From assembly GCF_025787225.1 (NCBI RefSeq), contig NZ_CP090958.1:3830550-3894549 (forward strand): 64,000 nt of DNA. Reading direction: 5' to 3'. The notes under the pieces are model-generated. The model was given only the letters and a program-made list of their open reading frames with translations, did no database searches and had not been told where the DNA came from. The position numbers and the translations under genes were made by a program. Of this stretch, positions 50,847 to 64,000 are shown piece after piece. Within the stretch, counting starts at the first letter, position 1. The number at the start of each line of letters is the position of its first letter. The stretch is from Saxibacter everestensis. Its GTDB lineage: Bacteria; Actinomycetota; Actinomycetes; Actinomycetales; Brevibacteriaceae.

Positions 50847-52334
50847 TCAGCCCCGGTAATGGCCGAGGATTTCGAGGCTGTGCCGCTGGGGTGGGCTCCG
50901 GCCCGGCTCGTCGGAGCGCTCTGGGCAGGCGCGAGATGCGACGACATGCTGCGATATGACGGTACGGTTCGGTCGCCTGCCGCAACCGAGCGATTTGGGT
51001 TTGAGATGGTCCTGCTCCGGCCGATTGACATCCTCCGTGTTCGGCAGGACGTCGCCGCTCTGCGCTGGGCCGCTTGCGACGGCGATGCGCTGGCCCCGTT
51101 CGACGCAGCGCTGGCGGTAGTCGGTGCGGCCGATGAACTTTCCGTTGTTTGACCAGAAACTCAGGCCGCGCGCATCGTGGGCGATGGCGATGTTGTTCCG
51201 GTGGATCCAGTGGTGGTGGAAGATGCAGAATAGGGCGCCTTCATCGATGTTGGTGTTGCCGTTGGCTGCTGCCCATTCGTTGATGTGGTGTCCCTCGCAG
51301 TATTCCGGCGGGATTCCGCAGCCGGGGCTCATGCATCCGCCGTCGCGGACCATCATGCTTTTACGTTGGCGGCCGGTGAACGTCCGCTTCTCTCTACCGA
51401 AGTCCACGACTTGACTGTCGGCGTCGAAGACCACACGCATCAGCTGCGCGTCGCACAGCAAGGTAGCCGGGTCCGATTCGGCCAGTGGGGTGCCGTCCGT
51501 GTAGGTGGCGCCGGGAAACTCCCCGCGGGTGCGCCACGCGGCCCATTGCTCAGCGCTGAGTGTGACCATCACGTGCGGGCGCACCTGCCCGCCGACGCGC
51601 AGTGTTCCGCGATCCAAGGCGTGCCCGGCCACTGTGGTCAGGGCGTCGGCAGTTCGTTGCACGATCGTGCGGTCGTCGTCGGCTGCGGGCTTGCCTGCGG
51701 CGGCCTTTAGCGCGGTCCGCAGCATCTGCCCGGATGCTTCGTCCAGGAACGCCTCCAGCCGGAAGCCGCCGTATGCCCTGGTCAGTCGGGTGAACCGGCG
51801 CGCCTTGGCGTCATCGGCACCGCGCTGGTGCGCCGCCTTGTCTATGTCAGCCAGCTTGTGCTTCAGGGCGGTCTTGAAGTCGTTCGCGTTGGTCTTGCCC
51901 GCAGACCGCAGTAGGTCGTCCTGGATTTCCGGGGTCTGCAGCGCTTCGCGTTGTGCCTCGGAGGCCGTCTGCATCCCCCGGGCAAGGACGGTGGCGTGTT
52001 CTGCGGTGATGTCCCCGTTCTGCACGGCGTCGCCAAGTCGTGGCGCTTCCTCGACGGTGCGGGCGAGGTGCAGCTCATCTCGGGCTTTGCCATAACCCTC
52101 TCGGGTAGTCCGCGCCCGCCAAGCTTCGATGCTGGGATCGCCGCGCAACGCCCAGTCACCACTTTCCTCTTCCACGGTCAGAATTCGCGCTTTTGTCAAT
52201 GCCGCAATCCTGGTCAAATCATCCAGCGCGGAGAGCGCTTGGCGCCGCTCGTCCATCGTCCAGGCACGGACCTGGTTTGAGGTCAGGGCCTTGGCGGTGG
52301 CAACGGTCGCGCGCACTTCCTCCACGATCTCCAC
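50847..52334 (-). CDS. DUF222-HNH endonuclease-like protein
   Basis: A 495-residue protein of the REP13E12/DUF222-HNH family common in actinobacteria. The N-terminal helical DUF222 region (about residues 1-310) precedes an HNH domain with C-M-S-P-G-C and E-G-H-H-I-N-E-W, then F-H-H-H-W-I-H-R-N. Metal-binding Cys pairs and His residues look intact, so nuclease activity is possible. The C-terminal 70 residues are low-complexity and diverged. GTG start with AGGAGG upstream. Function in the host is unknown; members often sit in variable regions. Confidence 0.88.
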   Translation of the reverse strand: MEIVEEVRATVATAKALTSNQVRAWTMDERRQALSALDDLTRIAALTKARILTVEEESGDWALRGDPSIEAWRARTTREGYGKARDELHLARTVEEAPRLGDAVQNGDITAEHATVLARGMQTASEAQREALQTPEIQDDLLRSAGKTNANDFKTALKHKLADIDKAAHQRGADDAKARRFTRLTRAYGGFRLEAFLDEASGQMLRTALKAAAGKPAADDDRTIVQRTADALTTVAGHALDRGTLRVGGQVRPHVMVTLSAEQWAAWRTRGEFPGATYTDGTPLAESDPATLLCDAQLMRVVFDADSQVVDFGREKRTFTGRQRKSMMVRDGGCMSPGCGIPPEYCEGHHINEWAAANGNTNIDEGALFCIFHHHWIHRNNIAIAHDARGLSFWSNNGKFIGRTDYRQRCVERGQRIAVASGPAQSGDVLPNTEDVNRPEQDHLKPKSLGCGRRPNRTVISQHVVASRACPERSDEPGRSPPQRHSLEILGHYRG

Positions 52335-56898: not shown

Positions 56899-57720
56899 TC
56901 AGCCAGCCGTGCTGCCCCGGGAAGCGACCGTCGCATGCAATTCGCGAAGCCGCTCGAGGCTGTTCCGCAGCGCGGATTGGTAAATCCAGAGGTCTGCGCT
57001 GTGCGCTATCACCCGGTAGCCGAGACCGAGTGCCGTCTCGGCCATCCGGGTGGACGTGGTCAGGATGCCGAGGCCCTTGCCCTGGCCGAGCGCTGCATGG
57101 GCCACGGTGGTCAGCGCCTGGATGAATCTCTCGTCGTCGAACTGGCCGGGAATACCCAGACTGATGCTGAGATCCAGCGGGCCGACGAAAAGCACGTCGA
57201 CGCCGTCAACCGCGGCGATTCCGGCGGCGTTGTGCACGCCCTGCTCGGATTCAATCTGGGCGATCAACAAACCGTCACGGTTCGCGGTCGAGATCTTGTC
57301 GTCGATGGCGCCCGCGATGTAGTCGTCATGCGCAATGCCGAACGCGGCCCCACGGGTACCTACTGGCGGATACTTGGCTGCCGACGCCAGCCGGGTTGCC
57401 TGCTCGGGGGTATTGACGAACGGCACCATCACGCCCTGCGCGCCGATGTCGAGTGCCCGGCTGATGAAACTCGGGTCGTGCCCCGGTACCCGGACCCAGC
57501 TTGCCAGCCCGGTATGCCGGGTTGTTGCGAGCAGGCCGGCAAGCGTCTCCCAGCTCCAGCCGGTGTGCTCGCCGTCGTAAAGCACGAAGTCCGCGCCGGC
57601 CCCATCGGTGAGCCGGCCGATGCCGTTGGTGGCGAACTCCATCACAAATGTGCCAAGGATGGGCTCGCCGGCCGCCAGCTTTTCGCGCACGGAGCGCCGT
57701 GCCTGTGGAGGTTCCGACAT
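56899..57720 (-). CDS. HpcH/HpaI-type aldolase
   Basis: A 273-residue TIM-barrel class II aldolase. G-T-F-V-M-E-F-A-T, D-F-V-L-Y-D-G-E-H, the G-A-Q-G-V-M-V-P-F-V-N-T metal/pyruvate segment, I-A-Q-I-E-S and V-D-V-L-F-V-G-P-L-D-L are the expected motifs, including Glu and Asp metal ligands. It would cleave a 4-hydroxy-2-oxo acid to pyruvate or glyoxylate products. No homoprotocatechuate genes are adjacent, so the pathway is open. AAAGG precedes the ATG. Confidence 0.88.
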   Translation of the reverse strand: MSEPPQARRSVREKLAAGEPILGTFVMEFATNGIGRLTDGAGADFVLYDGEHTGWSWETLAGLLATTRHTGLASWVRVPGHDPSFISRALDIGAQGVMVPFVNTPEQATRLASAAKYPPVGTRGAAFGIAHDDYIAGAIDDKISTANRDGLLIAQIESEQGVHNAAGIAAVDGVDVLFVGPLDLSISLGIPGQFDDERFIQALTTVAHAALGQGKGLGILTTSTRMAETALGLGYRVIAHSADLWIYQSALRNSLERLRELHATVASRGSTAG

Positions 57721-57927: not shown

Positions 57928-58656
57928 TTAAAGCCGGTTCCCCTCGATATCCGACGCCGACTCCTCGGTCCGGCCACGCAGGATCCAGGCCAGCACCACG
58001 GTGATGACGACGACGATGAAGGTGCCCGCGGGGCTCAGGACGGGCAGCACCAGCAGCAGGCCGAAGGTGACGAACACCGCGGCCGCGACGGCGATGATGG
58101 TGATTCGCGGCTTCCGCAGCGACATCGAGATCTGCACCATCACCGCGCCGAGAATTGCCGGAAGGATGTAGAGCTTGGCGACGTCCACGATCGGTGTGGG
58201 AACCACGCTCACGATCCAGGTGCCGAGGATCCCGACAAACAGCAGGAGCGAGGTGATGTGTACGACGACGGCTCCGCAGATCGCCATCGTGGCCGCCAGT
58301 TCCCCTTTGCGGGTTCCTGGCATGACGTTGACCCTGGGATGACTTTGCGCGCCGATCGCAGCCGGAAGCAGCTTGTTGGAGATGTTGCCGATCAGGAATG
58401 CCTGGTACATGCCCGCCTGTCCGAGTACGGGGTAGTAGGTGATCGGCTCGACGAACCAGAACACGCCGTAGGCGCTGGCGACTGCGAGGAATGCCACCAG
58501 CAGCTCGCCGGTCGAAATGTTCAGACCGCCGAACAGCGCCAGATAGAGCGGACCGCCCACGGTCAGGACCAGGACGATGATCATGGTCAGCCTGCCCCAG
58601 CGGGCGGTGGTTCGGTCGAAGGCGGCCAGGCCGGGCGCCTCGGTAAGGTTGCTCAT
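57928..58656 (-). CDS. Integral membrane protein, partner of the DUF5058-like protein
   Basis: A 242-residue protein with about seven helices. Distinctive segments are G-Q-A-G-M-Y-Q-A-F-L-I-G-N-I-S-N-K-L-L-P-A and K-G-E-L-A-A-T-M-A-I-C-G-A-V-V-V-H-I. I do not recognise a characterised family. It starts 15 nt after the DUF5058-like gene, so the two are an operon. GGGGGA precedes the ATG. A two-subunit transporter is an inference. Confidence 0.75.
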   Translation of the reverse strand: MSNLTEAPGLAAFDRTTARWGRLTMIIVLVLTVGGPLYLALFGGLNISTGELLVAFLAVASAYGVFWFVEPITYYPVLGQAGMYQAFLIGNISNKLLPAAIGAQSHPRVNVMPGTRKGELAATMAICGAVVVHITSLLLFVGILGTWIVSVVPTPIVDVAKLYILPAILGAVMVQISMSLRKPRITIIAVAAAVFVTFGLLLVLPVLSPAGTFIVVVITVVLAWILRGRTEESASDIEGNRL

Positions 58657-58671
58657 GTCAGTCCCCCTGAC

Positions 58672-59421
58672 CTAGGCGCCGAGTCCGGCCGCGTGGGCGA
58701 AGTATGCGACGACGAGCCCGATCACGATGGAGAATCCCAGCGCCCATTCGTTCAGCCAGGGCTGGCCGAGCTTCTTTGCAACGAACAGCAGGATTGACAT
58801 TGCGATGGCCGAGGCGATCACAGTGATGATGTGAACCGGCGTCTTCGCCAGCTCTCCGACCGTGAGGCTCGCGAAAGCGGCGAGGAGCGCTGCGGCGGGA
58901 ACGATCGCCATCACCTGCGGATTGACCCGGCGAAGCTTGGAATCACCACGCTTGAGTAGCGGGGTGAGGATCAGAGTCGCAAGCATCCACATGGCACCGG
59001 AGAGGCCCATCGCGAAGAAGGCGATGACGAAGACTTTACTGGTGTAGCCCTCGCCGCCGAGTTCGGCGCCCTGAGTGCCGGCGGCGAGAGTGGCCGAGGC
59101 AACTTCGGTTGCCGCCGAGCCGATCACGCCGATCCGTACCAGGACTGGCGGTGTGCCGAACAGAGGCAGCAGGGCGACCGCGACCAGGACGATAGACAGC
59201 GACGGCCCGATCGCTGCGACGGCGCCCGACCGGAACGAGGTTCGCATTTGTTCTGGTGTCATGCCGGCGTCCGGTGCCGCCTTCTTAGCTGCCCGGAGGT
59301 AGATCACCGACTGGCCGGCGATCACAGCGAAGACAGCAAGTGCGATGAACCAGAGAAATGGGGTATTGGCTATCGCCGACACGTCGGCGGAGCCTTGCTG
59401 AGCCGATAGCGATGTCATCAT
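58672..59421 (-). CDS. DUF5058-like integral membrane protein
   Basis: A 249-residue protein with about seven helices. I-G-P-S-L-S-I-V-L-V-A-V-A-L-L-P-L-F-G-T-P and I-G-V-I-G-S-A-A-T-E-V recall DUF5058 proteins, whose function is unknown. Asp/Ser/Glu residues within helices (S-A-A-T-E) could bind a cation or solute. First gene of the pair; GGAG is just upstream of two adjacent ATGs. Its divergent side faces corA in the same direction. Confidence 0.72.
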   Translation of the reverse strand: MMTSLSAQQGSADVSAIANTPFLWFIALAVFAVIAGQSVIYLRAAKKAAPDAGMTPEQMRTSFRSGAVAAIGPSLSIVLVAVALLPLFGTPPVLVRIGVIGSAATEVASATLAAGTQGAELGGEGYTSKVFVIAFFAMGLSGAMWMLATLILTPLLKRGDSKLRRVNPQVMAIVPAAALLAAFASLTVGELAKTPVHIITVIASAIAMSILLFVAKKLGQPWLNEWALGFSIVIGLVVAYFAHAAGLGA

Positions 59422-59528: not shown

Positions 59529-60572
59529 TTACAACCAGCGGCGTTTTTTGAAACCGGCGTACAACAGCGCGCTACCGGTGATCATCAATCCGAGGGCCGC
59601 CGGGTAGCCCCACGGAAAGTCCAGCTCGGGCATGTGGGTGAAATTCATTCCGTAGATCGAGCCGACCAGCGATGGCGCGAACAGGATCGCTGCCCAGGCC
59701 GATATCTTCTTCATCTGCTCGTTCTGGTCCAGGCTCACCTCGTTCTGTCGTTGCCCGACCAGGGTCGCGTTCACTGTGAGCACGTCGGCCAGCAGATGGC
59801 GCAGACTGTCGATCCGCTCATTGACATGAGTCACATGGTCGTCGACGTCGCGCAGGTATCGCTGCAGTTCCTGATCGACCTGGTATTTCCGGAAGCCGGA
59901 GGACAGGTTGTCGAGCGTCGCACTCAACGGATTGGTGGCGCGTTGAAACTGGATCGCCTCACGGGAAAGCTCATAGATCCGCCGGGACACCGCAGGGTCC
60001 CCGTCGAAAACCTGAGTTTCGATTTCATCGACGTCGTTCTCCAGCCCGGCGATGACTGGCATATAGCCGTCGACCACGGCATCGAGGATGGCATACAGCA
60101 CGGCCTCGGTGCCCAACGCCAGCAGCTTGGGATCCTGGTCTTCCATCCGGTGGCGCACGGTGGAAAGGTCCGGCGACGTACTGTGCCTGACAGTGATGAC
60201 GAAGTTTCGGCCGACGAAGATGTGCAGCTCGCCGAACTCGACGGTTTCGGCATCGTCCAGATAGGTAGCGGCGCGAAGTACCAGGAACAGGGTGTCGCCG
60301 TAGCGCTCGATCTTCGGCCGCTGATGGGCGGCGACCGCGTCTTCGATGGCGAGCTGATGCAGGTCGAACTCCGCCGCGAGCGAGTTCAGCTCTGCGTGCG
60401 TCGGACGAAAGAGACCGATCCAGGCGAGTGCCCCTGGGCGGTCGTTGAGTTCGCGATACGTTTCGGCGAGGGAAACCGGCGAGCTCACCCGTTTCCCGTC
60501 GACGTAAATCGCGTTGTCGACGATGCTGCTTCCCTTGGACACGCGCCGGTTCGGGAACTCAGGCTCACTCAT
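59529..60572 (-). CDS. corA: CorA-type magnesium/cobalt transporter
   Basis: A 347-residue protein. Large cytosolic alpha/beta domain, then two helices at the end with the selectivity motif Y-G-M-N-F before the loop M-P-E-L-D. The C-terminus is F-K-K-R-R-W-L. It forms a pentameric Mg2+ (Co2+) channel. The ATG at 60572 is chosen because GGAG lies 5 nt upstream; the frame extends beyond it but is divergent-promoter DNA. It faces the amidase gene across 181 bp. Confidence 0.92.
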   Translation of the reverse strand: MSEPEFPNRRVSKGSSIVDNAIYVDGKRVSSPVSLAETYRELNDRPGALAWIGLFRPTHAELNSLAAEFDLHQLAIEDAVAAHQRPKIERYGDTLFLVLRAATYLDDAETVEFGELHIFVGRNFVITVRHSTSPDLSTVRHRMEDQDPKLLALGTEAVLYAILDAVVDGYMPVIAGLENDVDEIETQVFDGDPAVSRRIYELSREAIQFQRATNPLSATLDNLSSGFRKYQVDQELQRYLRDVDDHVTHVNERIDSLRHLLADVLTVNATLVGQRQNEVSLDQNEQMKKISAWAAILFAPSLVGSIYGMNFTHMPELDFPWGYPAALGLMITGSALLYAGFKKRRWL

Positions 60573-60753
60573 AGCTACTCCGATGCCTTTGCGAGGGTTT
60601 TGCCGCCCTGAGATTACCACCGGGATGGGACCGGCCGGGTCCAAGCAGCTTGCGCCAGATTCGGGGAGGCGGATTTGTCGTGTTCAGCTCCTGCCAGCCG
60701 ATCTGATTCGGGGCATAATCGGTGGGAAGGCACGCAACTCGAGGATGAGAACT

Positions 60754-62169
60754 ATGACTATTGACGTATTCAGTTCCGCGCGGGACATGCTGGACGCAGT
60801 GCGATCGCGCGACATCTCCGCCGTCGAGCTGCTTGAGCTGCACCGGCGGCAGATTGAATACGTCAATCCTAAGGTCAATGCGCTAGTGAGCATTGATTTC
60901 GAGCGAGCGCACGAGCAGGCGACGGCGGCCGATGCGGCTACCGAGCGTGGCGCGGCCGTCGGCAGACTGCACGGCTTGCCCTTTGGCTTCAAGGACACTC
61001 ATGCCGTCGGGGGATGGCTCACCACATCGGGTTCGCCGATCTTTGCCGACCTGGTGCCCACCCGCAGCGACCTGCACGTTCAGCGGGTGCAGGATGCCGG
61101 TGCCATCACGGTCGCGAAAACGAACGTTCCGGAGTTCGCCGCCGGCTCGCACACTTTCAATCCGGTTTTCGGGCTGACCCGCAATCCCTATGACCCCGAC
61201 AGGTCAGCCGGCGGCTCGAGCGGTGGTTCTGCCGTCGCGCTCGCCACCGGAATGCTGCCGCTGGCTGACGGAAGTGACATGGGCGGTTCGCTGCGCAATC
61301 CCGCGTCGTTCAACAACGTCGTCGGCTTCCGGCCCTCGCCGGGCCGGGTTCCCGTCTGGCCGAACCCGACCCCGTGGGACACACTGGCGGTTGCCGGCCC
61401 GATGGCGCGCACCGTGGATGATCTGTGCCTGTTACTTTCGGTTCTGGCCGGGCCGACATCGAAGACCGAGCTGGCTCGCGAGCTTCCGGGTGACACCTTT
61501 TCCCCGCTGCTGCCCCGGACACTGGCCGGCGCGCGCGTTGCCTTCGACATCGATCTTGGTGGTTCTTTTGCCGTCGACAACGATGTGCGCGCGGTAATTG
61601 AGGCACAGCGGTCCGTCTTCTCCGACGCCGGCGCCGTCGTCGAGGAAGCACATCCCCGGCTGGACGGCGCCGACGAGGTGTTCCGCGTCCTGCGTGCCTG
61701 GCTGTTCCAGCTGCGGCTCGGCGACCTGCTGGCGCGCCACCCGGGAAGAATGAAGGACTCGCTGGTGCAGAACATTCAGGCCGGCGTCGGTCTGACCGGG
61801 GAGCAGCTGGGCCGGGCGCTGACCAGCAAGGCCCGGATCTACCAGGTGATGGACCAGTTCTTCGAGAAGTTCGACCTGCTCGCCCTGCCGGTGTCACAGG
61901 TTCCGCCGTTCGACGCCGAGCTGGAGTTCCCGACCGAGATCAATGGACAGCAGATGGAAAGCTATCTGGACTGGATGCGCTCGGCGTACTTCATCACGGT
62001 GACCGGATGTCCCGCCATCTCGCTGCCCGCCGGTTTCACCGCGCAGGGTTGGCCGGTCGGCATCCAACTCGTCGCCGCTCCCGGGCAGGATCTGAAGCTG
62101 CTGCAACTAGCCCGCAGCTTCGAGCAAGCCAACCCGGCCGGGCAGCGACGTCCCCTGCTGGCTGTCTGA
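60754..62169 (+). CDS. Amidase (amidase-signature family)
   Basis: A 471-residue enzyme. The Ser-cisSer-Lys triad is visible: Lys80 in G-F-K-D-T, Ser155 in G-G-S-S-G-G-S and nucleophile Ser179 in D-M-G-G-S-L-R. It hydrolyses amides to acid and ammonia; substrate unknown. The ATG at 60754 has GAGGATGAG upstream; an ATG at 60745 is possible. Followed by the XRE-cupin regulator in the same direction, 113 bp on. Confidence 0.9.
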   Translation: MTIDVFSSARDMLDAVRSRDISAVELLELHRRQIEYVNPKVNALVSIDFERAHEQATAADAATERGAAVGRLHGLPFGFKDTHAVGGWLTTSGSPIFADLVPTRSDLHVQRVQDAGAITVAKTNVPEFAAGSHTFNPVFGLTRNPYDPDRSAGGSSGGSAVALATGMLPLADGSDMGGSLRNPASFNNVVGFRPSPGRVPVWPNPTPWDTLAVAGPMARTVDDLCLLLSVLAGPTSKTELARELPGDTFSPLLPRTLAGARVAFDIDLGGSFAVDNDVRAVIEAQRSVFSDAGAVVEEAHPRLDGADEVFRVLRAWLFQLRLGDLLARHPGRMKDSLVQNIQAGVGLTGEQLGRALTSKARIYQVMDQFFEKFDLLALPVSQVPPFDAELEFPTEINGQQMESYLDWMRSAYFITVTGCPAISLPAGFTAQGWPVGIQLVAAPGQDLKLLQLARSFEQANPAGQRRPLLAV

Positions 62170-62282: not shown

Positions 62283-62846
62283 ATGAGCGTGGATCTGTTG
62301 GATGACACGCTGGGTCAGCGGGTTCGAGCTGCACGACTGCTTCGAGACATGCCGCTCAGGAAGCTCGCCGCCAGCGCCGGCGTCAGTTCGAGCTTTCTCA
62401 GTCAGCTCGAGAACGATCTGTCCAGCGCGAGCATCTCCTCACTGAAGAAGATCGCTGAGTCGCTGGGAGTGACGACGGCGGAACTGATCGATGGCAGCAC
62501 AAGCCACAGCAGGGGAGTGCTGCGCAGCATTGACCGGCCGCACTACCAGGCAGGCGATGGGGTTAACAAGTACCTGCTGACCCCACCGCCGTTGCGAAAC
62601 CTCGAAGTGTATTTCGGCACCATCGATGCCGACGGTTCCACCGGTGACGAGCCGTATACCCACGGTAATTCCCAGGAGTTGTTCGTCTGCCTCAAAGGAT
62701 CGGTATTGCTGCACCTCGGCCACGAACAGCACACGCTGTTGACCGGCGACAGCATCGAGTTCCTCAGCTCAAGTCCACACAAGGTCGTCAACGTCGGCAG
62801 TGACGTCGCCGAAGTGCTCTGGGTGTGCAGCCCACCAACCGACTAG
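62283..62846 (+). CDS. XRE-cupin regulator (PuuR-like)
   Basis: A 187-residue regulator. N-terminal XRE helix-turn-helix (about residues 11-66: L-R-K-L-A-A-S-A-G-V-S-S-S-F-L-S-Q-L-E-N-D) and a C-terminal cupin (about 110-180: H-G-N-S-Q-E-L-F-V-C-L-K-G-S-V, G-D-S-I-E-F). This is the domain order and length of PuuR, the putrescine-responsive repressor of E. coli. The next gene is a polyamine-type binding protein, which fits. CACTT/AAGTG arms (62224-62237) lie upstream. Its stop codon is the start of a repeat array. Confidence 0.88.
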   Translation: MSVDLLDDTLGQRVRAARLLRDMPLRKLAASAGVSSSFLSQLENDLSSASISSLKKIAESLGVTTAELIDGSTSHSRGVLRSIDRPHYQAGDGVNKYLLTPPPLRNLEVYFGTIDADGSTGDEPYTHGNSQELFVCLKGSVLLHLGHEQHTLLTGDSIEFLSSSPHKVVNVGSDVAEVLWVCSPPTD

Positions 62847-62941: not shown

Positions 62942-64000
62942 ATGTTGAGTCTCAATCTGCCACGGCGGGGACGCTCTGTCCGGTTGGCGCTGTTGGGCGC
63001 CGGGTCAGCAGTGCTGCTGGCCGCCTGCGGAGGCGGCGGTCCCGCCGAAATCGACCTTGGCGAAGGGCCCGCGAAAGCCGGCACGGTCAAGGCCGGAGCC
63101 CTGGACGGCGTCAATCTCACCTTTGTGTCCTATGGAGGCATCTATCAGGACGGGCAGATGGCGGCAGCTGGCACGCCGTTCGCCGAGGAGTCCGGTGCGA
63201 AAATTTTGCAGGACGGGCCTACTGAGTACGCCAAGATCAAGGCGCAGGTCGATTCCAATAACGTCACCTGGGACGTTGTGGACACCGACTCCAACTGGGC
63301 AGCCGGCCAATGCGGGAAGCTGCTCCAGAAGCTTGACTACTCGATCATCGACAAGTCAAAGGTGACCGAGGGGCTGGCAAGTGACTGCTACGTGCCGGCG
63401 ATGCAGTATGCGAGTGTCGTGGTCGCCAACACTGAGAAGTTCGGTGACTCGGTCAAAACCTGGAAAGACTTCTTCGACACCGAGAAGTACCCCGGCAAGC
63501 GGGGCGTTCAGAGCGGAGACATCGGCGGCGGCATCCTGGAAGGCGCCCTGATTGCCGACGGTGTGGCGCCGGACGAGCTCTACCCACTCGATGTTGACCG
63601 GGCGCTGAAGAAACTCGAAACGATCAGGGACAGCATCGTCTACTGGACGACCGGAGCCCAGGCCCAGCAGATGCTGGAGTCGGGTGAGATCGATATGGGC
63701 GTGGTCTGGTCCGGTCGCGCGTACGGTGCGGTAGAAAACGGTGCTCCATACGCGCCGGCCTGGGAAACCGGTGTCGTGGTGATGGATGTGCTCACAGTGC
63801 CGACGAATGCGAAGAACCCTAAGGCGTCGATGGCATTCATCAACTACTACCTCGGCCAGAAACAACAGGAGAAGCTCACTGAGGAAACCTCGTATTCCCC
63901 GATCCACGTCGATGCGAAGCCCCAGGTCAACGCGGAAGGCCAGAAGTTCCTGCTGACCAATCCCGAGGTCGCAGACAAGGTCCTGACCTCGGACTTCACC
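62942..64000 (+). CDS. Polyamine-type ABC binding lipoprotein (3' end outside the window)
   Basis: 353 codons are visible with no stop before the window end. The signal peptide has a lipobox L-L-A-A-C (Cys28). The mature part opens G-V-N-L-T-F-V-S-Y-G-G-I-Y-Q-D and has V-W-S-G-R-A-Y and W-E-T-G-V-V-V-M-D-V-L-T-V-P, PotD/PotF-like. It is less similar to the pair at 45-47 kb than they are to each other. GGAGGAAG precedes the ATG. It probably starts a second Pot-type importer that continues beyond the window, under the XRE-cupin regulator. Confidence 0.88.
   Translation, partial: MLSLNLPRRGRSVRLALLGAGSAVLLAACGGGGPAEIDLGEGPAKAGTVKAGALDGVNLTFVSYGGIYQDGQMAAAGTPFAEESGAKILQDGPTEYAKIKAQVDSNNVTWDVVDTDSNWAAGQCGKLLQKLDYSIIDKSKVTEGLASDCYVPAMQYASVVVANTEKFGDSVKTWKDFFDTEKYPGKRGVQSGDIGGGILEGALIADGVAPDELYPLDVDRALKKLETIRDSIVYWTTGAQAQQMLESGEIDMGVVWSGRAYGAVENGAPYAPAWETGVVVMDVLTVPTNAKNPKASMAFINYYLGQKQQEKLTEETSYSPIHVDAKPQVNAEGQKFLLTNPEVADKVLTSDFT

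Follow-up and report, generated by a model that had tools for sequence, protein, structure and literature searches.

DUF5058 and its partner family form an inseparable pair of membrane proteins: a candidate two-gene carrier

The two genes

The window, i.e. the whole 64,000-nucleotide stretch of the Saxibacter everestensis chromosome that was analysed, contains two open reading frames for membrane proteins lying side by side on the minus strand. The original prediction had treated this pair as a possible new two-part transporter, and its account of the arrangement holds in full, with the frames adjacent and 15 nucleotides apart. DUF5058 is the upstream gene and the protein termed 'partner' here is the downstream one:

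58672..59421, minus strand: DUF5058 protein, 249 amino acids, proposed first inverted repeat (open reading frame, PF16481 match, AF2 helices)
57928..58656, minus strand: partner protein, 242 amino acids, proposed second inverted repeat (open reading frame, AF2 helices)
58657..58671, minus strand: 15-nucleotide gap with a ribosome-binding-like AGGGGG stretch

The AGGGGG stretch precedes the partner's ATG, and the two frames are in register, the DUF5058 gene ending with a TAG codon at 58672-58674. The DUF5058 protein scores 212 bits against PF16481, over model positions 1-222 of 222 (Pfam; cut-off 28.2), and all 22 aligned homologues match the same model. The partner encoded in the window has no match above any Pfam or NCBIfam cut-off; when 20 members of its family were compared with Pfam, the best E-value was 0.014 and the hits were scattered over families. 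No similarity between the two subunits could be detected. Among the sequences of solved structures, neither DUF5058 alone nor the partner profile found a match, and the DUF5058 profile found nothing except one chance row at E 2.8. Riboswitch control of the pair was considered and rejected, as an Rfam scan of the window and nine loci from outside the haloarchaea gave no match near the pair, the glycine riboswitch included.

Co-occurrence and distribution of the two families

The co-occurrence of the families was studied in an even draw of 396 genomes from the window's order. DUF5058 was found above the cut-off in 42 of these, and the partner profile identified the identical 42. Each of the 45 DUF5058 places in this draw is followed immediately, on the same strand, by the partner, and zero partner places are left over; two sub-threshold DUF5058 rows (G999 and G695) and one partner row of E 9.7e-4 (G705) were dropped from this count. 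Stops occur inside three of the matches, namely the DUF5058 of the second copy in G685, which is broken by one TGA, and the partners of G890:C16 and G869. The latter two frames end normally at 230-231 amino acids, so that the partner match extends beyond the stop. In G901 the DUF5058 match is fragmentary.

Wider surveys gave the same picture. In a draw of 296 genomes from the class, both families are carried by the same five genomes, not counting one weak row for DUF5058 and four for the partner (E about 1e-4 to 1e-3). At the level of the phylum, where the search was for DUF5058 only, 3 of 396 genomes exceeded the cut-off. Both proteins match the same 12 of 72,556 plasmid records, the carriers being Arthrobacter, Paenarthrobacter, Paracoccus, Vibrio and haloarchaea. 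A scan for close relatives of the partner, taking one genome per species, returned 33 loci, mostly from Brevibacterium; a DUF5058 match stands beside the partner in 32 of them, one being partial (L025), and in the remaining locus (L033) the contig ends just before the expected DUF5058 position. No fused gene was seen in any of 99 pairs, some places being counted twice, as a frame change or an in-frame stop separates the two proteins in every case. These surveys covered Actinomycetota genomes, the one scan for close partner relatives and the plasmid records, with Bacillota outside their scope; the DUF5058 query found no relative in viral contigs or in phage records.

The pairing is far beyond chance. 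The outcome against which the original prediction had been set, that the families would mostly occur apart, was not observed, since no separate occurrence was found. Taken across genomes, plasmids and the scan, the paired counts describe a family that is patchy in its distribution, spans bacteria to archaea and was never found split. The two proteins almost certainly constitute an obligate two-subunit membrane assembly.

Several individual loci deserve comment. Degenerate pairs, with stops or frameshifts, are present at L040, L041, L042 (Vibrio diabolicus plasmid) and L106, so that broken pairs make up three of the eight plasmid loci that were fetched (L040-L042). The Vibrio copy of the pair is surrounded by transposases. 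At L102 (8766-9392) and L103 (7380-7985) the DUF5058 gene is complete and the partner is 202-209 amino acids long, without its last two helices; these short partners (L037/L102 and L038/L103) represent two genomes of one genus. The contig of L033, titled Acidobacteria bacterium, bears a partner and an amidase of actinobacterial type, and may be a misassigned bin.

A joint structural model

As the frames are in register, the pair was modelled as one chain, with the natural TAG read as a residue. An AF2 model of the window pair (model 1, 43 aligned rows) reached a pTM of 0.81 and a mean pLDDT of 83.8, and one of the L101 pair (model 2), whose chain is 47% identical to that of the window, reached 0.83 and 86.6; the two models are not independent, because their alignments consist of the same 43 rows reordered. 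The structure prediction of the heterodimer that had been proposed as a check therefore yields confident joint models. A pTM of 0.8 over 497 residues suggests that the placement of the halves relative to one another can be taken with confidence, and a pLDDT below 50 is listed for residues 246-263, which link the two halves, and for the extreme C-terminus.

As read from the AF2 helices, each subunit has seven segments, of which the third is broken. In DUF5058 this segment is formed by helices 90-97 and 103-115, with the break at 98-102. The partner's second helix extends over 41 residues (304-344 of the joint chain), and its final stretch is taken to form the first half of the third segment; after it come a break at 345-346 (partner residues 90-91) and a half-helix at 347-359. 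Spacer helices are found between segments 4 and 5, at 160-163 and 400-406 in model 1 and at 161-166 and 398-404 in model 2. Each is followed by a proline: P168 in 16 of 22 DUF5058 sequences (missing in four haloarchaeal rows and two others) and P153 in 19 of 20 partners. The most conserved polar positions are located as follows:

59104..59118, minus strand: SAATE, DUF5058 residues 102-106, at the start of half-helix 103-115
59134..59136, minus strand: R96 of DUF5058, just before the helix break
58372..58389, minus strand: GNISNK, partner residues 90-95, at the break between the half-helices
58444..58449, minus strand: E70-P71 of the partner, about 20 residues before the break

Both R96 and S102 are invariant in the 22 aligned DUF5058 sequences, and residue 106 is glutamate in 18 and aspartate in four. 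G90, N91, E70 and P71 are invariant in all 20 partners and N94 is present in 19; Q104, likewise invariant, is at some distance from the break, as is E70. The S-A-A-T-E and G-N-I-S-N-K motifs had been picked out beforehand as likely to be functional, and they prove to be conserved and to sit at the helix breaks of the models; a functional role for them is proposed below.

The original count of seven helices in each protein agrees with the segments of the AF2 models, but less well with the charges of the loops. With helix bounds set by hand, the ratio of lysine plus arginine inside to outside is 8.5:1.0 for DUF5058 and 6.2:0.1 for the partner if the third segment is re-entrant, compared with 4.8:4.7 and 4.3:2.0 if there are seven crossings. 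By this measure a re-entrant third segment, which makes the number of crossings even, fits better than seven crossings. Two readings of the topology are retained: a plain 7+7 split, or an extra N-terminal helix in each subunit, such that the broken segment stands for TM2-3.

Comparison with known folds

Comparison of the models with the PDB using Foldseek retrieved one class of carriers in particular. For model 2, ranks 1-17 are all of the SLC4/SLC23/SLC26 type, with probabilities of 0.72-0.99, and rank 18 is a MATE protein with a probability of 0.21; the top rows comprise Band 3, UraA, SLC26Dg, SLC26A3, BTR1, SVCT1, UapA, AtSULTR4;1, AE2, a NAT transporter and SPDT. For model 1, every row with a probability of at least 0.30 among the 50 listed is of this type, and a pyrophosphatase stands fourth by E-value with a probability of 0.23. 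No row reaches E 0.001 with either model, and the 7TMIR rows have a TM of about 0.3 and a whole-chain rmsd of 13-20 Å.

VIA-align gave a similar result, the SLC4/SLC23/SLC26 type accounting for 47 of the 50 listed rows with model 1 and 46 of 50 with model 2. The best Z values, 8.9 (rmsd 5.5 over 280) for model 1 and 9.0 (rmsd 6.0 over 320) for model 2, are to be read as moderate, given that helical models may score Z 13-14 without kinship. The aligned ranges of the rows of this class start at model residue 33-69 and end at 432-493, which implies that both subunits are used, each range being defined by its first and last residue only. In these counts AZG1, Bor1 and SPDT are assumed to be members of the SLC4/SLC23/SLC26 class, and ankyrin-complex chains were counted as Band 3 by residue range. 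The class assignment of the named fold entries follows excerpts of PMC6497670 and PMC11362169.

Sequence comparison does not place the pair within any of these families. When DUF5058 was aligned with a UraA-type profile (hhalign), the probability was 27-29%, with seven decoys at 1.7% or less, in a register that sets GxP...R...GS against G...R...GtS. With deeper alignments the same comparison gave 6.6% (best of 15 decoys 0.9%), while true relatives scored 79-98%, and 93-98% with the deeper alignments. As the probability fell from 29% to 6.6%, sequence homology between DUF5058 and UraA is not claimed. Profile comparisons with the SLC23 and SLC26/SulP families were not significant, and the pair has no PF00860 or PF00916 match in Pfam. 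The earlier remark that neither protein resembles a characterised carrier is thus upheld as far as membership by sequence is concerned, but not for structure, as the nearest fold is that of the SLC4/SLC23/SLC26 class. Assignment to a known fold with a known substrate had been named as an outcome that would count against a new transporter; what was found is a nearest fold class, with no known substrate attached. Judging by the models, the pair probably has a 7TMIR-like fold.

Carriers of the SLC4/SLC23/SLC26 shape are normally one protein with a 7+7 inverted repeat, and UraA (SLC23/NAT), which is of the PF00860 kind, has its 14 segments in one chain. Like the pair as modelled, UraA has seven segments per repeat, a broken third segment, and, in each repeat, a spacer helix plus proline separating segment 4 from segment 5; unlike the pair, it is a single chain rather than two genes. 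Characteristic of the 7TMIR class are half-helices of segments 3 and 10 that face one another at the substrate site; the corresponding helix breaks of the models are at 98-102 and 345-346. In UraA, as PMC11362169 describes, a conserved proline flanks the spacer helices that lie between TM4 and TM5 and between TM11 and TM12, and TM7 is loosely tethered to TM8. The position of this tether is that of the gene boundary in the pair. Similarity to SLC26/SulP and SLC4 proteins is seen in the best VIA-align rows (AtSULTR4;1, SiSulT and prestin) and in the Foldseek rows for Band 3 and SLC26Dg, but these too are single chains, and the pair lacks both a STAS domain and significant similarity to the SulP alignment. 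Inverted repeats split between two genes are known from other folds, in the antiparallel hetero-dimers and DUF606, where, according to PMC3962082, oppositely oriented paired genes give rise to one membrane protein. The hetero-dimers tabulated in that review have four to six segments, and none of their families is matched by the pair in Pfam. In a literature search of titles and the starts of abstracts, no split or half-size 7TMIR carrier was recognised.

The strongest competitor to this assignment is a two-subunit carrier with a hairpin-type elevator fold, whose resemblance to SLC4/SLC23/SLC26 proteins would be superficial. Each subunit would then comprise two helices, a re-entrant hairpin and four further helices, with both ends of DUF5058 outside and both ends of the partner inside. 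In both families the positive loop charges agree almost perfectly with such a topology, the whole-chain rmsd to 7TMIR chains is poor, and GltPh and CitS are found among the weaker Foldseek rows. However, those two have probabilities of 0.13-0.28 and all the high-probability rows are 7TMIR proteins, while spacer helices and prolines occur at the places equivalent to those of UraA. Furthermore, the variant with an extra N-terminal helix, in which the split segment 3 corresponds to TM2-3 of UraA, would reconcile the charges with the 7TMIR fold; the VIA alignments to UraA start at model residue 55-59, the beginning of segment 2, which suits that variant. A hairpin-type fold therefore seems unlikely. 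For the preferred reading, a two-subunit carrier of 7TMIR-like arrangement, the chances on the basis of the models are about even; the pair is proposed to work like a 7TMIR carrier yet to stand outside SLC4, SLC23 and SLC26 by sequence.

Conserved neighbours of the pair

The genes flanking the pair were compared across 61 loci, consisting of the 33 scan loci, eight plasmid loci and 20 stretches from genomes chosen for diversity. Of all neighbours, an M20-cluster hydrolase recurs most consistently, lying within 3 kb of the pair at 56 of the 61 loci, in keeping with the expectation that an amidase or peptidase would be a constant neighbour. The five loci without one are L028, which has two pairs and an M20 gene adjoining the other; L033, where the absence coincides with the cut contig; L041 and L042, which are broken pairs; and L091, which is a second pair in its genome. 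At L040 and L106 the hydrolase is present beside a broken pair. All ten copies tested, nine beside the pair and one displaced (that of the window's genome), exceed the cut-off for the M20D amidohydrolases (TIGR01891) and fall short of the CpsA and DoeB2 equivalog cut-offs. There are five TIGR01891 matches above the cut-off in the 4.05 Mb genome of the window, from which the probability of chance linkage is estimated at about 1%.

An aldolase, an amidase and a polyamine-type importer had been remarked on near the pair, and all are present in S. everestensis:

56899..57720, minus strand: HpcH/HpaI aldolase, downstream of the pair (family match)
60514..62169, plus strand: amidase, PF01425, PRK07486-like (family match)
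62283..62846, plus strand: XRE-cupin regulator, PuuR-like (below the PuuR cut-off), beside the amidase

A CorA gene separates the pair from the amidase. A PotD-like ABC importer, named from its reading frames, begins near 62942 and extends past the end of the window. The amidase is partly kept elsewhere, a similar gene being found within 8 kb at 43 of the 61 loci (33 of 33 scan, 2 of 8 plasmid and 8 of 20 diverse loci), and the window copy is 46-50% identical to the cluster amidases of the scan loci. Its listed TTG start is probably 60-70 codons too early, to judge from the start of the family match. The aldolase and CorA were rejected as functional partners, as each is a neighbour at 0 of 61 loci and so looks local to the window's genome. 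The XRE-cupin regulator recurs at one of the 61.

Regulators of the AsnC type occur within 8 kb at 18 of the 61 loci, 16 of these being among the 20 diverse ones; one such Lrp/AsnC-type copy is AsnC_trans_reg in Pfam. Matches to APC-type permeases are present at 15 of the 61. At nine loci (L028, L044-L047, L089 and L095-L097) there is a glycine-related match within 8 kb, i.e. gcvP, gcvT, gcvH or the Gly_transporter family PF03458, of which UPF0126 is presumably the older name. PF03458 was tested on the copy at L097, and the link at L028 and L095 is a gcvT-like match alone. Genes for glycine cleavage adjoin the pair in both bacteria and haloarchaea (L089, L096, L044 and L046).

A proposed carrier and its substrate

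From the helix breaks and the alignment ranges of the models, we infer that each subunit would supply one seven-segment repeat, the two being oppositely oriented, and that the broken third segments would meet inside the membrane. There, the S-A-x-x-E/D end of DUF5058, with R96 before it, and the G-N-I-x-N end of the partner would make up a shared binding site, in which R96, S102, E/D106, N91 and N94 could jointly accommodate a carboxylate-bearing substrate. The glutamate E70 of the partner is a candidate for proton or ion coupling, as is Q104. Segments 1-4 of both subunits may form the transport unit, moving against segments 5-7 in the manner of an elevator. The suggestion of a two-part transporter has accordingly gained an inseparable pair, a confident joint model and carriers as the nearest folds, while transport itself is a deduction from these.

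The constant presence of the hydrolase suggests what might be carried. The substrate may be a small carboxylate amide-bonded to an amino acid, such as an N-acyl amino acid or a glycine conjugate; after import, the M20-type amidohydrolase, in some lineages together with the amidase, would cleave it in the cytoplasm. Glycine would be a likely product of this hydrolysis where genes for glycine cleavage and glycine transport lie near. Import is the more probable direction. An amide-linked amino acid as the substrate could equally well prove right or wrong, and glycine conjugates in particular are doubtful. The combined proposal, in which the architecture of UraA, Band 3 and prestin is encoded in bacteria and archaea by two genes whose repeats are still separate, and serves an amide-linked amino acid and, in certain lineages, a glycine conjugate, is accordingly put forward as tentative. 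Points that speak against it are the short partners of two genomes, which have lost two helices, the APC-type permeases as alternative importers, and the distance of the related M20 gene from the pair in S. everestensis.

The pair might instead export the product of hydrolysis, glycine or another amino acid, with the amide not being imported by it. The PF03458 glycine transporter and glycine-cleavage genes adjoining several copies imply that an overflow of glycine may need an outlet; Lrp/AsnC-type regulators are near a number of loci, and the APC-type permeases could be the importers. Yet it is the hydrolase that is the constant neighbour, and no other membrane protein is as frequent among the clusters listed. 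Moreover, a separate protein may already move glycine, since excerpts of PMC12173739 report the UPF0126 family to be important for glycine utilisation in 11 bacteria and predict it to be a glycine transporter. Export by the pair is for these reasons considered quite unlikely. It is more improbable still that the pair is not a carrier but a channel, or a membrane complex serving to anchor or regulate the M20 hydrolase: transport is a prediction, and no mention of DUF5058 or PF16481 was found in the literature searched (mostly outside the subscription journals), but carrier folds dominate the structural matches, and conserved polar residues (R96, S102, E/D106, N91 and N94) lie at the helix breaks or beside them.

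That inverted-repeat carriers arose when half-size genes were duplicated and fused is a long-standing idea. Were the two-subunit 7TMIR-like carrier confirmed, it would represent a present-day two-gene form of this fold, making the idea directly testable. It would also provide a function for DUF5058, define a new partner family, and indicate how N-acyl amino acids or glycine conjugates are taken up, beside a hydrolase that can be assayed.

The neighbourhood in Saxibacter everestensis

The operon of the pair lacks M20D in the window's own genome. A displaced copy is located past the end of the window, about 9 kb from the pair (G000:C1:3899154-3900152), and is the best match for 19 of 27 cluster hydrolases compared, at 42-46% identity, the next-best copy showing 32-38%; the other eight (L043-L047, L096, L105 and L106) are closer to other copies in this genome. 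By the reading of their frames, its neighbours are the PotD-like ABC genes, an FAD oxidoreductase, a class III aminotransferase and two aldehyde dehydrogenases. The same reading places a PucR-like gene in this island (L113:3492-16774, from about 62942 of the window onward). Taken with the amidase, these genes resemble a catabolic island for nitrogen compounds of the amide or amine type.

Two further observations concern this genome more generally. A minus-strand frame at 50847-52334 reads like a DUF222/HNH-endonuclease repeat protein. The genome also has ten matches to the PF00860 xanthine/uracil permeases, compared with four to five in three other genomes searched; the excess was noted at G000, L115, L120, L123 and others, and suggests a nucleobase-catabolising lifestyle.
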